Assembly (NCBI GenBank): GCA_035651655.1
Contig: DASRFG010000026.1
Coordinates: 48,499 to 112,498 of the forward strand
Direction: 5' to 3'
DNA: 64,000 bases
Source of the DNA: Terriglobales bacterium
GTDB lineage: Bacteria > Acidobacteriota > Terriglobia > Terriglobales > Acidobacteriaceae
In this document: piece after piece, positions 9,901 to 51,868 of the stretch
Numbering within the stretch: position 1 is the stretch's first letter
Layout: each line of letters opens with the position of its first letter
Notes under the pieces: generated by a model
Databases searched by the model: none
What the model was told of the DNA's origin: nothing
The model's input: the letters and a program-made list of their open reading frames with translations, nothing else
Position numbers and translations under genes: made by a program

Positions 9901-10448
9901 TTTTCCATCTCCAGGCCCTGGTCCTGAATTTCCAGGAAGAAATTCTGTGGCCCGAAGATTTCGCGGAAGGAACCAGCGGCTTGCCTGGCCGCATCGTAGT
10001 TCCCTTCCGTGAGCCGCTCTGCGACTTCGCCTTTCAAACAACCGGAGAGGCCAATCAGCCCTGCGCTGTGCTCCGCAAGAAATCTCTTGCTCACACGCGG
10101 CTTGTAGTAGAAGCCGTGGAGGGAAGCTTCGGAGGTGATCTTCACCAGGTTGCGATAGCCCTGTTCGTTTTCCGCGAGCACCAGCAGGTGGTTGTAAGTG
10201 TCGCCCTCAGGAGCCGCCCGGTGGTCATCTTTTTTGCAGATGTACAGTTCACAACCGATGATCGGCTTGATCCCTGCCTTGTTTGCCGCATTGTAAAAAT
10301 GGACTGCGCCAAAGATGTTTCCGTGGTCGGTCATGGCCACGGCTGGCATACCCAGTTCCTTGGCACGGGCGACTAGCTTGTCCACATCGCAGGCGCCGTC
10401 CAGCAGCGAATAGTCGGTATGCAGGTGAAGATGGATGAATTGGGACAT
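6975..10448 (-). CDS. dnaE: DNA polymerase III, alpha subunit
   Basis: The replicative polymerase catalytic subunit, 1157 residues, the normal DnaE1 length. It begins with a PHP domain (HLHTDYSLLDGACD, residues 7-20). The palm carries the catalytic aspartates in PDIDIDF (about 405) and KMDFLGL (about 556). The tRNA-like fingers, helix-hairpin-helix region and OB fold (EIYVGGVTANVRVLKSKKGD) follow in order. The gene heads a minus-strand run with accA only 23 bp downstream, a dnaE-accA arrangement also seen in other bacteria. Nothing is missing from the active site. Confidence 0.97.
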   Translation of the reverse strand: MSQFIHLHLHTDYSLLDGACDVDKLVARAKELGMPAVAMTDHGNIFGAVHFYNAANKAGIKPIIGCELYICKKDDHRAAPEGDTYNHLLVLAENEQGYRNLVKITSEASLHGFYYKPRVSKRFLAEHSAGLIGLSGCLKGEVAERLTEGNYDAARQAAGSFREIFGPQNFFLEIQDQGLEMEKRIQPGLLQLSKELNTPLVATNDSHYLCEDDAHAQDVMVCIQTGKSIQDTNRMKFQGTGFFVKSYDEMYRVFKDTPDVLSRTVDIAARCNLRLEKVGNPFPHFEVPPGFTLDTYFGHIAREGFAGRLESLRQFEARGQLKNSLADYEQRLAREIGIIQQMQFAGYFLIVWDFIRYAKEHNIPVGPGRGSAAGSLVSYAMGITDIDPLQHDLLFERFLNPERVSMPDIDIDFCMNRRGEVIDYVTSKYGRENVAQIITFGTMAAKAAIKDVGRAMDIPYAEVDRIAKMVPAQLNITLEKALQDSPALQAAFQNDAQVKELITTARKLEGLVRNSGVHAAGVVISPRPLTELVPLHKTKNDEIVTAFDMTAIEKMGLLKMDFLGLTTLTILDDTIKLIAQTRSEQVALEGIPLEDVETYEKVFHKGLTSGVFQFESHGMRDVLRRYQPNSIQDLTALNALYRPGPIQGGMIDDFIDRKHGRKRIEYELPELEEILKETLGVIVYQEQVMQIANKLAGYSLGEADLLRRAMGKKIPAEMAAQRERFVQGAVQRGLPPKKIEKIFDLMEQFAGYGFNKSHSAAYALLAYHTAYLKTHYPVEFMAALLTSVTGNTDEVVKYINECREMGIAVEPPDINVSDANFTPHGAAIRFGLAAVKNVGHNAIESIALARKGLGRFSSMFEFCEKVDLRLLNKRVVESLIKSGAMDSLGRRAQLMAVVDKAMERAQKAQRDAESGQHGLFGVFQQDEAPVHNDHLPEIPDWDEHTRLSAEKEILGFFITGHPLEKYQDKLADFSALTIEDIGRMKQSTAKDAEIYVGGVTANVRVLKSKKGDLYAQGSLEDMTGSLEMLVFPEAFKRLQERLKIEAPVLIRGGVRIEEGANPKLTVSDIVPLEEAQPKLPNALRIRIPLETATEATVDALHSLCAERKGQAKLLFDVERQGDFMVVMETEGYNVQPDRGFIARVEQLCGRGSVRVVG

Positions 10449-10546
10449 CAGAGCTGTGGGATTCTGTACTTACATTCTACGGGGAACGACGGGCGTGCGC
10501 GACACGCAAATTATCCACACCTCGTGGAAAACATGCGGTGGGAATG

Positions 10547-12154
10547 CTATCGGCGCTTCTTGGCCTTGCCCTTGGCCTTGGCAGGCTTTGCGGCAGGCTT
10601 AGCCCTCGGCTTCGGGCTGGCCTTGGTGTTCGCCTTGGCAGCGACTGGCGGTCTGGACTCCGGCTTTTTAGGGGCCTCTGCAGCCGGTCGTTTCTGGCCG
10701 GGCGTAAGCGCAGCCGCGGCAGCTGGCGCCTGCGCTGGAGCCGGAGCTCCCTTCTTTTTCCCGGATTCTTTCCCCTTTTTGCCCGCGTCTGCCGCTGCCG
10801 GTGGCGTGGCCACGGGTGTCACTTGTGCCTTAGCGGCGCGACCCCTTTTGGGAGGTGGCGGAGGCGGTGGCGGGGGAGGTGGAGCCAGCGGCTTGAGGAA
10901 TTTCAGAATTTCCGTCCGGGAACGCAGCTTGCCATCGAGCAAAAGGTGAAAGACCTGATCGGCGATCTTGGGATACTCCGGCATGGCGGGCGTGATGCGC
11001 AGCTCCACCATTTCTGCCAGTGGAATCTTCTGCTGTACCTGCCTCCATTTGCCGAAGAAATTTTTAATCTTCTGGGAAGCTGCTTGCTGCCGGGTCGTGA
11101 GTTCAAAGAACAAAATGGTCTCCGGCCGCGCGTTTGAAAGTAAATCCCAGGCGCGCGAGGGAGTAGCTGCTTCCTTTCCAGAGAGTCTCTTCCCCAAATC
11201 GCGGGCGTCATCGTCCAAGCGGCGCCATTTCTCAACCAGGTCACGGCGCGGAATCAGCTTCTGCATGTCGGAGATGTCACGGCTGCCTAGCCGCCGAGTG
11301 AGGAAATGAAGCACCGCGGGGCCAGTGTCTATTGAGGAATAGCCAAACTCGCCCATCTGCTGCTTGAGCTTACTCAACTGTGCCAGGCCGGCAGTATCCA
11401 CCTTCGACGTGCTCCAGTGAGGATTAAGCACCTTCAGCCAGTCTTCTTTCTCCAGAGCCTTAATGATGTGCAGAGGGTCGTCTTCATAGGCCAGTTGCTC
11501 GATCTCGTAACCAATGGCGCGATCGCTAATGTGCTCGATATATTTATTTTCTTTGGCTGAGTCGTACCGTGTCTGCGTGCGCTCTTCGAGCGGCCAGTGA
11601 AAGCGCGCTGCAAATCGTGTGGCGCGAATCAATCGCGAAGGGTCTTCTACGAAGGCATAGTTATGCAGGATCCGCAGCAGTTTGGCTTCAATGTCCGCCG
11701 CGCCGTTAAATGGATCCAGCAGCAAACCGCGGGAACCCGGATTCAGCGAGAGCGCCATGGCATTGGCGGTGAAGTCACGGCGCCGAAGGTCCTCGGCGAT
11801 AGTAGCGGGTGAGATGACCGGCGGCTTCCCTGCCTTCTCATAGCGCTCGGAGCGGGCCATCGAAATCTCAGCTCGCACGTTTCCAGGCAGCAATAGGTAG
11901 AGGGTCTTCAGGTCGTCATCCACCCCCTGCACTACCACGCCGGCGCGTTCCAGGTCTTTCTGCAAACGCAGCGGGTTACCTTGAACAGTGAAATCGAGGT
12001 CGCGGATAGGAAAGCCACTGATGATGTCGCGCATGGCCCCGCCGGTGAGATAAACATTGATCTCCGCCGCCCTGGCCACGTCCTGCACCAGGGTGACGCC
12101 CCGCTGCTGCTCTGGGGTCAGCCGGATTTCCAAGGTGTAAATGTAGTCCGCCAT
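10547..12154 (-). CDS. CCA tRNA nucleotidyltransferase / poly(A) polymerase family enzyme with a Pro and Lys/Ala-rich tail
   Basis: Residues 1 to about 420 form a class II nucleotidyltransferase: the head motif LTGGAMRD, the metal-binding pair DLDFTVQ, then RRRDFTANAMA and EDPSRLIRATRFAARF. It adds CCA to tRNA ends or A tails to RNA; these activities cannot be told apart here. The last 113 residues are unrelated: a run of 11 prolines followed by a low-complexity Lys/Ala/Pro region ending KAKGKAKKRR, resembling bacterial histone-H1-like tails. The normal enzyme ends near residue 425-450, so this is an added tail. The gene lies 98 bp upstream of dnaE on the same strand. Confidence 0.87.
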   Translation of the reverse strand: MADYIYTLEIRLTPEQQRGVTLVQDVARAAEINVYLTGGAMRDIISGFPIRDLDFTVQGNPLRLQKDLERAGVVVQGVDDDLKTLYLLLPGNVRAEISMARSERYEKAGKPPVISPATIAEDLRRRDFTANAMALSLNPGSRGLLLDPFNGAADIEAKLLRILHNYAFVEDPSRLIRATRFAARFHWPLEERTQTRYDSAKENKYIEHISDRAIGYEIEQLAYEDDPLHIIKALEKEDWLKVLNPHWSTSKVDTAGLAQLSKLKQQMGEFGYSSIDTGPAVLHFLTRRLGSRDISDMQKLIPRRDLVEKWRRLDDDARDLGKRLSGKEAATPSRAWDLLSNARPETILFFELTTRQQAASQKIKNFFGKWRQVQQKIPLAEMVELRITPAMPEYPKIADQVFHLLLDGKLRSRTEILKFLKPLAPPPPPPPPPPPKRGRAAKAQVTPVATPPAAADAGKKGKESGKKKGAPAPAQAPAAAAALTPGQKRPAAEAPKKPESRPPVAAKANTKASPKPRAKPAAKPAKAKGKAKKRR

Positions 12155-12473: not shown

Positions 12474-12950
12474 ATGCCTTCAACGCATAAAAAAGTGATT
12501 GTCCGCAAGATGGACCGCGACACCATCAATGGCCACGTCGCGCCGGCCAACTTTATCGTGGCCGGCAAGCTGGAGATGTTGAACACGGCCGGTAACCTGG
12601 TCGCCATTGATTTGCATGAAATCAAGGTTGTTTACTTCGTTCGCGACTTTGCGGAAGGCGCGCCTGTGCGCAAGACTTTCGCTACTCGACCCCGCACCGA
12701 AGGACTGTGGGTGCGGCTCCGCTTCAAAGATAACGAGGTCATCGAGGGCATGATGCCCAATGACCTGGCCCTGGTCGGCGTGGAAGGATTTTTAGTCAAT
12801 CCCCCGGACGTTCGAGCGAACACGCAGCGCATGTTCATTCCAAGAACGGCTCTTTCCGCACTCACCGTGTTAGGAGTTGTCGGCATTTCCAAGGCACGCC
12901 GCCGTAAGCACGTTGCCCCAGAGCTCCAGGTCCCGATGTTCGAGCAGTAG
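12474..12950 (+). CDS. DUF6982-type protein
   Basis: This 158-residue protein starts with VIVRKMDRDTINGHVAP and contains LEMLNTAGNLVAIDLHEIK and VYFVRDF, a pattern I recognise from acidobacterial DUF6982 proteins. The fold looks all-beta and small. A short hydrophobic stretch near the end (LSALTVLGVVGI) is followed by basic residues KARRRKH. No catalytic motif is visible. In the family, members are often found near regulatory or PilZ-like proteins, but no function is established. The ATG at 12474 has little Shine-Dalgarno support. It is followed by lpxD after 90 bp on the same strand. Confidence 0.75.
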   Translation: MPSTHKKVIVRKMDRDTINGHVAPANFIVAGKLEMLNTAGNLVAIDLHEIKVVYFVRDFAEGAPVRKTFATRPRTEGLWVRLRFKDNEVIEGMMPNDLALVGVEGFLVNPPDVRANTQRMFIPRTALSALTVLGVVGISKARRRKHVAPELQVPMFEQ

Positions 12951-51139: not shown

Positions 51140-51868
51140 ATGTTCAAATTGTCCAGTTTGATTACTGTTGTTCTCGCGAGTGCTCCCCTGCTGGCCCAAA
51201 CCAAGCCGAGTGCGGCTCACAAGGCACCCGTACGCAAAGCTACGCCGGGGGCAGCGACCAAGGCCGAGCCCACCGCCGTCTTCCACACCACGGCCGGTAT
51301 TCTGACCTGCACTTTGTTTCCAGACAAGACGCCAAAGACCGTTGCCAACTTCATCGGCCTGGCAAAAGGCACCAAGGACTGGACCAACCCGGTTAGCCAC
51401 GTGACCAAGCACAACACGCCACTCTACGATGGCACCATCTTCCATCGCGTGATTCCAAATTTCATGATTCAGGGTGGAGATCCCGCCGGCAACGGCAGCG
51501 GCGATCCCGGCTACACCTTTGAGGACGAGTTCCGGCAGGACCTCGCGTTTGATCGTCCGGGACGGTTGGCGATGGCCAACTCCGGGCCGAATACCAACGG
51601 CTCACAGTTTTTCATTACCGATGTGCCAACGCCACACCTGAATGGACATCACACCATCTTTGGACAGTGCGATGCGGCCAGCGTGGCTCTGGTTAAGAAA
51701 ATGGAAGCCATGGCACGCGATCCGAATGACCGGCCGTTCCATCCAGTGCGCATTGTTCATGTAGATATCCTGCAACCCGGCGCCGCGCGCAAAGCTACCA
51801 GCCCGGCGCATCGCAAGCCAGCCGCAAAGAAACCGGCTGCCAAACCAGCAACAGCGCCGAAGCAATAA
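51140..51868 (+). CDS. secreted peptidyl-prolyl isomerase (cyclophilin type) with Lys/Ala-rich tail
   Basis: The cyclophilin core (about 50-210) carries [35 protein letters not shown] and the [10 protein letters not shown]-like [11 protein letters not shown] signal peptide ([14 protein letters not shown]) sends it out of the cytosol. The last 30 residues are Lys/Ala/Pro-rich ([17 protein letters not shown]). It accelerates cis-trans proline isomerisation during folding. A strong ribosome-binding site (GTCAGGAGCTACGA) precedes ATG. It is 23 bp upstream of a second cyclophilin gene. Confidence 0.92.

Follow-up and report, generated by a model that had tools for sequence, protein, structure and literature searches.

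Why should a tRNA nucleotidyltransferase end in a long, lysine-rich chain hung on a run of prolines? The question is raised by a gene in the 64,000-nucleotide stretch of DNA from a Terriglobales bacterium analyzed here (the window), whose features are collected in Table 1. We consider in turn what the enzyme is, where its extension begins, how widely and under what selection the extension is kept, and what it may do for an enzyme that does not work alone in its cell.

Table 1. Features of the nucleotidyltransferase gene and its neighbors in the window
Feature	Residues	Positions	Strand	Basis
Whole gene, class II tRNA nucleotidyltransferase with C-terminal extension	535 aa	10547..12154	(-)	
Catalytic core, ordered in the model	1-423	10886..12154	(-)	
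PolyA_pol head domain (PF01743), with D52 and D54 of the DxD motif	34-161	11672..12055	(-)	
Flexible loop	about 101-122	11789..11854	(-)	alignment to PDB enzymes
Templating motif EDxxR (EDPSR)	170-174	11633..11647	(-)	
Run of 11 prolines, mixed synonymous codons	425-435	10850..10882	(-)	
Basic motif KRGR, directly after the prolines	436-439	10838..10849	(-)	
K/A/P-rich cationic tail, predicted disordered, ending KAKGKAKKRR	438-535	10550..10843	(-)	
dnaE (DNA polymerase III alpha), next gene, 98 nt past the stop codon		6975..10448	(-)	
DUF6982 gene, upstream, divergent		12474..12950	(+)	

The protein scores 74.8 bits against PF01743 (cut-off 23), which places it in the class II nucleotidyltransferase and bacterial poly(A) polymerase superfamily. 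Its DxD, RRDF, and EDxxR motifs line up with those of PDB enzymes, and D52, D54, R125-T129 (the RRDF(T) motif), E170, D171, and R174 are invariant in an alignment of 22 proteins. A phmmer search with the core returned the Thermotoga maritima CCA-adding enzyme (E 1e-44) and the Aquifex A-adding enzyme (E 3e-37) as the best solved relatives, in keeping with the original prediction of a CCA-adding/poly(A) polymerase-type enzyme. In the AlphaFold model, block-mean pLDDT mostly exceeds 90 as far as about residue 420, and the core is confident to about residue 423; residues 1-424 align to CCA-adding and A-adding structures across the head-neck-body-tail fold, with large rmsd values. VIA-align gave a Z of 26.7 (rmsd 13.2, 402 aligned residues) for the Thermotoga enzyme and 27.0 (rmsd 10.3, 365 aligned) for the Aquifex aeolicus enzyme, a tie, while the Thermotoga tRNA complex 5hc9 (Z 22.1, rmsd 13.5, 399 aligned) covered the whole core. 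The cores of the Thermotoga (3h37/3h38/5hc9) and A-adding structures (1vfg, 4wby, 4wc2, presumably all from Aquifex aeolicus) are thus alike with that of the window enzyme, which carries the tail as an extra.

With both structural matches tied, the enzyme is a candidate for either CCA or A addition. The family models that would name a single activity all returned scores below their cut-offs: the CCA-adding equivalogs TIGR02692 (92.8 against 438.8 bits), NF008137 (93.7 against 451), and NF009814 (87.2 against 290), the PcnB poly(A) polymerase model TIGR01942 (60.7 against 305.65), and the A-adding equivalog NF041569 (119 against 1440), of which only profile positions 472-870 were matched. CC-adding enzymes are marked by a deleted or shortened flexible loop (PMC7014341, PMC3925840). 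The loop of the window enzyme is equal in length to those of the aligned Thermotoga CCA-adding and Aquifex A-adding enzymes, and a CC-adding role is rejected on this predicted full-length loop.

The core aligns over its full length with the Thermotoga enzyme, and the tail thus begins about where known enzymes end; among the VIA-align matches listed, none extends past model residue 429, and pLDDT falls below 50 from residue 438 onward. Residues 424-535 read as A424, 11 prolines (425-435), KRGR, and then a K/A/P-rich chain ending in KAKGKAKKRR, all encoded within 10547-10885, as had been predicted. These 112 residues (the 113 first counted include the stop codon) are 71% K+A+P and carry a net charge of +24. 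The histone-H1-like character first ascribed to them holds for composition and goes no further. R439 of the KRGR motif is invariant among the 22 aligned proteins. The proline codons run CCA CCT CCC CCG CCA CCG CCT CCG CCA CCT CCC, a mixture on which a plain trinucleotide expansion is rejected. A run of this length is a likely substrate of EF-P (for background on EF-P and EfpL, see PMC11611912), and the genome has an EF-P gene. Open-access literature, judged by title and abstract start, yielded no report linking polyproline to a tRNA nucleotidyltransferase. On the opposite strand, an ORF of 176 aa (10419-10949, (+)) contains an 11-glycine run that mirrors the prolines; it is probably no gene.

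Relatives from the rest of the phylum show where such an enzyme normally stops. In a phylum sample, 38 of 149 genomes matched at E ≤ 1e-30, 16 belonging to the window's own family (f1; families are coded f1-f13) and 22 being phylum kin only. Loci were examined for 14 of these 22, and 12 of the ORFs measured 861-909 aa. Among the 14, all from other Acidobacteriota classes, 13 end 2-28 aa past the core (for one of these, the locus contains no stop codon); the alignment of the fourteenth stops early. Together with the disorder of the model from residue 438, this upholds the claim that the normal enzyme ends before the tail. The three tested against NF041569 score 567-817 bits, short of the cut-off of 1440, in alignments that span almost its full length, and a Pfam scan of one relative showed DHH, DHHA1, and CBS domains at the front. 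The nearest phylum relatives found outside the class are DHH-CBS, A-adding-like enzymes of the NF041569 type, mostly of about 880 aa. The window enzyme differs from them in having no such front domains, seen in the one relative scanned, and in continuing into a tail where 13 of the 14 examined end.

The tail stands out in the sampled part of its own genome. A sample of 449,581 bases (the window plus 20 stretches, about one-ninth of 4.07 Mb) gave, by naive gene calling, 420 ORFs of at least 90 aa, which were ranked on their last 60 residues. The window enzyme comes first in K+A+P (72%; next 55%) and in longest proline run (11; next 5), and second in lysine content and net charge, after a 190-aa protein at L162 1485-2057 (-) on contig C32. 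Only one other ORF of the 420 has a 60-aa segment with K+A+P of at least 55% and lysine of at least 12%, and a genome-wide habit of such tails is rejected. The L162 protein has a K/A/P/Q-rich body and, by eye, a signal-peptide-like start, and has no Pfam match at E ≤ 0.001. In the roughly 450 kb sample, no ORF besides these two is strongly K/A/P-rich. A search with the tail alone found only itself in the genome at E ≤ 1, under low-complexity filtering that may mask weak likenesses, and a duplicate of the tail elsewhere in the genome is rejected at that threshold. Runs of at least eight CCN codons occur genome-wide as 16 overlapping matches at five places, the window gene included, all in the proline frame of an ORF; a backward-pattern control gave an equal count, which is inevitable for a periodic pattern and uninformative. 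Elsewhere in the genome, 11-proline runs at C6:47330 (-) and C23:355567 (+) lie just after a probable membrane segment and look TonB-like by eye. At 51140-51868 (+), the window also carries a peptidyl-prolyl isomerase of the cyclophilin type, whose start looks by eye like a signal peptide and which has a short [18 protein letters not shown]-terminal tail.

Across Terriglobia, a tail was scored in complete loci as at least 50 aa past core position 423 with K+A+P of at least 50%. It is present in 58 of 60 f1 loci, 20 of 23 in f7, 7 of 10 in f2, 8 of 20 in f5, and the single f12 locus, and was found in none of the complete enzyme-bearing loci of f6 (0/10), f8 (0/4), f3 (0/1), and f11 (0/1). Loci from named genomes, which overlap with the genomes of the family-coded loci, have it in 73 of 77 cases. 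All of these are counts of loci and not of genomes, with at least one gene entered twice (G033, as L036 and L185), and eight rows stand outside the complete counts (one in f1, three in f2, one in f5, and three named) because they are cut off, lack a stop, or match over too short a length. The comparison of tail presence and length across Terriglobia that was proposed at the outset therefore gives five families with a tail and four without, with lengths of 66-231 aa in the near clade. The absence from f6, f8, f3, and f11, and the 8 of 20 in f5, indicate that the tail is inessential to fold or reaction. On a core tree of 98 of the 126 distinct cores (f1 thinned; tails labeled at no less than 50 aa and 45% K+A+P), every multi-row family forms one side of a branch, and tail presence changes at least seven times, so that gains and losses must have been repeated.

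The linker varies by clade. Near the window it reads A/S/E, a proline run, and KRGR; Granulicella-like members have SPPAPPPPVxxRRxR; and f5 and f7 mostly have [AS]GI[KP]E or similar. Of the tails that reach 50 aa, 173 in all with duplicates and two broken frames counted in, 166 have a net charge of at least +10, and 168 have at least three K/R/H among their last five residues. In L111 and L179 (the Granulicella rosea type), L102, and L194, long acidic (Asp/Glu) blocks separate the basic linker motif from the K/A/P end; the ends of these tails stay K-rich, and their net charges (-18 for L111 and L179, -4 for L102, and 0 for L194) mean that net charge is not strictly conserved.

Codon usage indicates at what level the tail is kept. 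The nearest clade comprises 62 listed loci, 61 of them usable; leaving out L073 and L079, whose frames are broken at N's, and removing duplicates gave 56 distinct tails. In pairwise comparison of tail codons 2-9, the third position differs in 68% of cases and positions 1 and 2 in 3.9%, against 49% and 34% for the last 40 core codons of the same genes, which implies that the linker prolines are held tighter than the adjoining enzyme. At least seven consecutive prolines occur inside the first 13 tail residues of 52 of the 56, and all 56 have a basic motif within the first 26 ([KR]G[RK], or KKR in two). Codon choice inside the proline run departs from that of the rest of the gene: CCC makes up 53 of 534 codons in the run against 487 of 2061 elsewhere in the same genes, and CCA 144 of 534 against 242 of 2061 (chi-square 110.9, p 7e-24, codons treated as independent), a choice that appears to avoid long runs of C. 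Lysine exceeds arginine in 59 f1 tails (K 2119, R 331), in contrast to their cores (K 1551, R 1762). Judged by its codon pattern, the tail is translated and under purifying selection as protein.

The enzyme that bears this tail is not the only one of its superfamily in the cell. A second PF01743 gene in the genome (L002) encodes a tail-less protein of 477 aa that has an HD domain. The window type is absent (E ≤ 1e-30) from 27 of 151 class genomes, 20 of them named directly and seven by elimination from the full list; these 27 hold exactly one PF01743 gene in 23 cases, two in one (8% contamination), and none in three. The three without any (G052, G086, and G109) have completeness given as 92-100%. 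A sample of 14 genes, seven drawn from the 23 single ones and seven being the second gene of a two-gene genome, scored 363-764 bits with L002 against 29-67 with the window core, and none of the 25-residue C-ends printed for them is a K/A/P tail. The full flexible loop is present in 13 of these 14, the loop pattern being unmatched in the f6 one, and a CC-adding role for the L002 type is rejected on that ground.

The tRNA genes suggest how the work is shared. The window genome has 50 RF00005 matches, all above the Rfam cut-off, and CCA is encoded in all 31 tRNA genes found in 30 loci from among them. Three f4 genomes with a single gene (G060, G067, and G074; L360-L362) have 18 of 26 sampled tRNA genes without CCA, while in other single-gene genomes CCA is encoded in 20 of 21 (f10), 5 of 6 (f9), and 8 of 8 (f13). 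CCA encoding thus switches within the class, f4 being mostly without it and the other sampled families mostly with it. Because the f4 genomes pair a lone L002-type gene with mostly CCA-less tRNA genes, the L002 type very likely makes the full CCA end alone where CCA is not encoded. By such comparisons, the tail-less L002-type enzyme looks like the housekeeping CCA enzyme, and the tailed enzyme, which looks dispensable at class level, is probably an accessory one; we infer a division of labor between them. A role of the window enzyme as the main CCA enzyme of the cell, which its first annotation might have implied, is probably to be given up, the tail-less L002 type also being present.

Among the 72 relatives whose loci include at least 1.5 kb of flank, 19 have dnaE on the same strand. 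The DUF6982 gene is a conserved neighbor, matched by tblastn in 77 of the 80 relatives fetched; its strand was printed for six, all divergent.

The closest tested analogue of the tail comes from a nematode. The class II CCA enzyme of Ascaris suum has a 40-aa K/R-rich extension with the patch RPKKRGKKRR that is unneeded for catalysis and raises tRNA affinity, is required to bind and extend armless tRNA, and confers tight tRNA binding when moved to the human enzyme, according to the study describing it (PMC12013499). The window enzyme likewise has a K/R-enriched extension past its normal C-terminus. In both class II enzymes the basic extension follows directly on that terminus, with RPKKRGKKRR there and KRGR plus KAKGKAKKRR here; its catalytic dispensability and its gain in tRNA binding, shown in Ascaris (PMC12013499), would here be expected by analogy. 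The settings differ: the Ascaris extension is 40 aa long and serves truncated mitochondrial tRNAs (PMC12013499), whereas the window clade has 66-231 aa, a proline spacer, an alanine/proline-rich chain, CCA-encoding tRNA genes, and a second enzyme. With all 50 tRNA matches above the Rfam cut-off, the Ascaris reason does not obviously apply. Open-access searches turned up no report on the basic region of E. coli poly(A) polymerase (judged by title) and none of this enzyme in Acidobacteria (judged by title and abstract start).

With the Ascaris extension as its closest tested analogue, the Terriglobia tail is read here as a proline-spaced chain that grips RNA electrostatically. We hold it somewhat probable that the tail is a selected C-terminal extension of a second, accessory enzyme, whose cationic chain grips RNA and raises affinity; the analogy makes an RNA-binding role plausible. 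The stiff proline spacer would keep the disordered polycationic chain off the tail domain of the enzyme, from the end of which it leaves; in the A-adding enzyme of Aquifex, the corresponding domain serves as an anchor by contacting the elbow of the tRNA (PMC3925840). Holding the RNA backbone electrostatically, the chain would strengthen binding of the RNA that is extended at its 3′ end, and the enzyme might thereby capture weak, damaged, or noncanonical RNA 3′ ends, either in tRNA repair or in the adenylation of other RNAs. That the tail binds RNA with a gain in affinity is what we infer, as are the RNAs and nucleotides that the enzyme would use. The long acidic blocks of some tails (L111, L179, L102, and L194) sit uneasily with this grip, being an arrangement of charge that a simple RNA grip leaves unexplained. 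The division of labor, for its part, has to reckon with three class genomes, of the 27 that lack the window type, in which no PF01743 gene was found.

The sequence would suit binding of RNA or DNA by the tail alike, and the main rival, which we regard as unlikely, makes it a nucleoid tether that binds DNA as the KPAA domains of AlgP and PhaF do, with RNA contact incidental. One f2 tail (L043) holds GRPRG, which we take to be AT-hook-like. Composition and proline/alanine spacing resemble those of the C-terminal domain of AlgP, which is described as DNA-binding and likened to histone H1 (PMC9239181), and K-rich low-complexity regions occur in many DNA-binding proteins (PMC6821194). The host, however, is an RNA enzyme, K/R-rich regions are tied to RNA binding too (PMC6821194), and the acidic blocks of some tails would weaken simple DNA binding. 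The AlgP and PhaF domains of Pseudomonas are likewise disordered, K/A/P-rich, C-terminal, and of comparable length, but are reported to consist of regular KPAA repeats with DNA and granule roles (PMC9239181), whereas the window tail is irregular, belongs to a different host domain, and is like them by composition only. The tail might instead place the enzyme in an RNA-protein assembly such as the ribosome, an RNA decay complex, or a polyphosphate/RNA condensate, with no direct gain in affinity, which we think quite unlikely. Such a role would suit the acidic-then-basic charge blocks of some members, cationic disordered tails may coacervate with polyanions (PMC9239181), and the low-complexity regions of ribosomal proteins are mostly C-terminal, with a K-rich minority, in one survey (PMC6821194); the neighborhood nevertheless names no partner, dnaE being adjacent in a minority of loci and the DUF6982 neighbor having no known function.

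Two further explanations deny the tail any function. That it is a tolerated product of low-complexity drift would agree with its wide length range (66-231 aa among 56 near relatives), with the lower identity of the part after KRGR than of the core (44-59% against 73-81% in seven relatives), and with the several families that lack it. The codon pattern already disfavors drift, the prolines being kept as protein despite scrambled codons, and lysine far above arginine in tails but not in cores, basic ends in 168 of 173, tails in five families, and the first rank in K+A+P within the genome sample, and so no general habit, also speak against it; we consider drift very improbable. The remaining possibility, that the frame past the core is untranslated or the tail an artefact of assembly or frameshift, would draw on L073 and L079, the two loci with broken frames among the 77 complete named ones. 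The original prediction had counted loss of the tail at a frameshift in homologues as evidence against itself, but both breaks fall at N's in the assembly, beyond which the usual tail resumes in another frame. Of the 173 tails that reach 50 aa, 168 stay open to a basic end; this and the codon pattern of purifying selection on protein also contradict an untranslated or frameshifted tail, which is rejected as having a negligible chance of being right.

We thus return to the RNA grip, in which the tail of this soil bacterium's second tRNA-finishing enzyme probably helps it hold RNA. How the arrangement arose is open to a more speculative suggestion, which we advance as doubtful: in much of Terriglobia, an A-adding-type enzyme, redundant beside the CCA enzyme, may have lost its DHH-CBS front, gained a proline-spaced polycationic tail, and become a broad RNA 3′-adenylating enzyme, a bacterial poly(A) polymerase that would have arisen independently of E. 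coli PcnB. If the RNA grip is true, the extension would be a bacterial, larger-scale counterpart of the basic extension of the nematode CCA enzyme, and it raises the question of why these bacteria keep a tailed second nucleotidyltransferase despite encoded CCA and another CCA-type enzyme.
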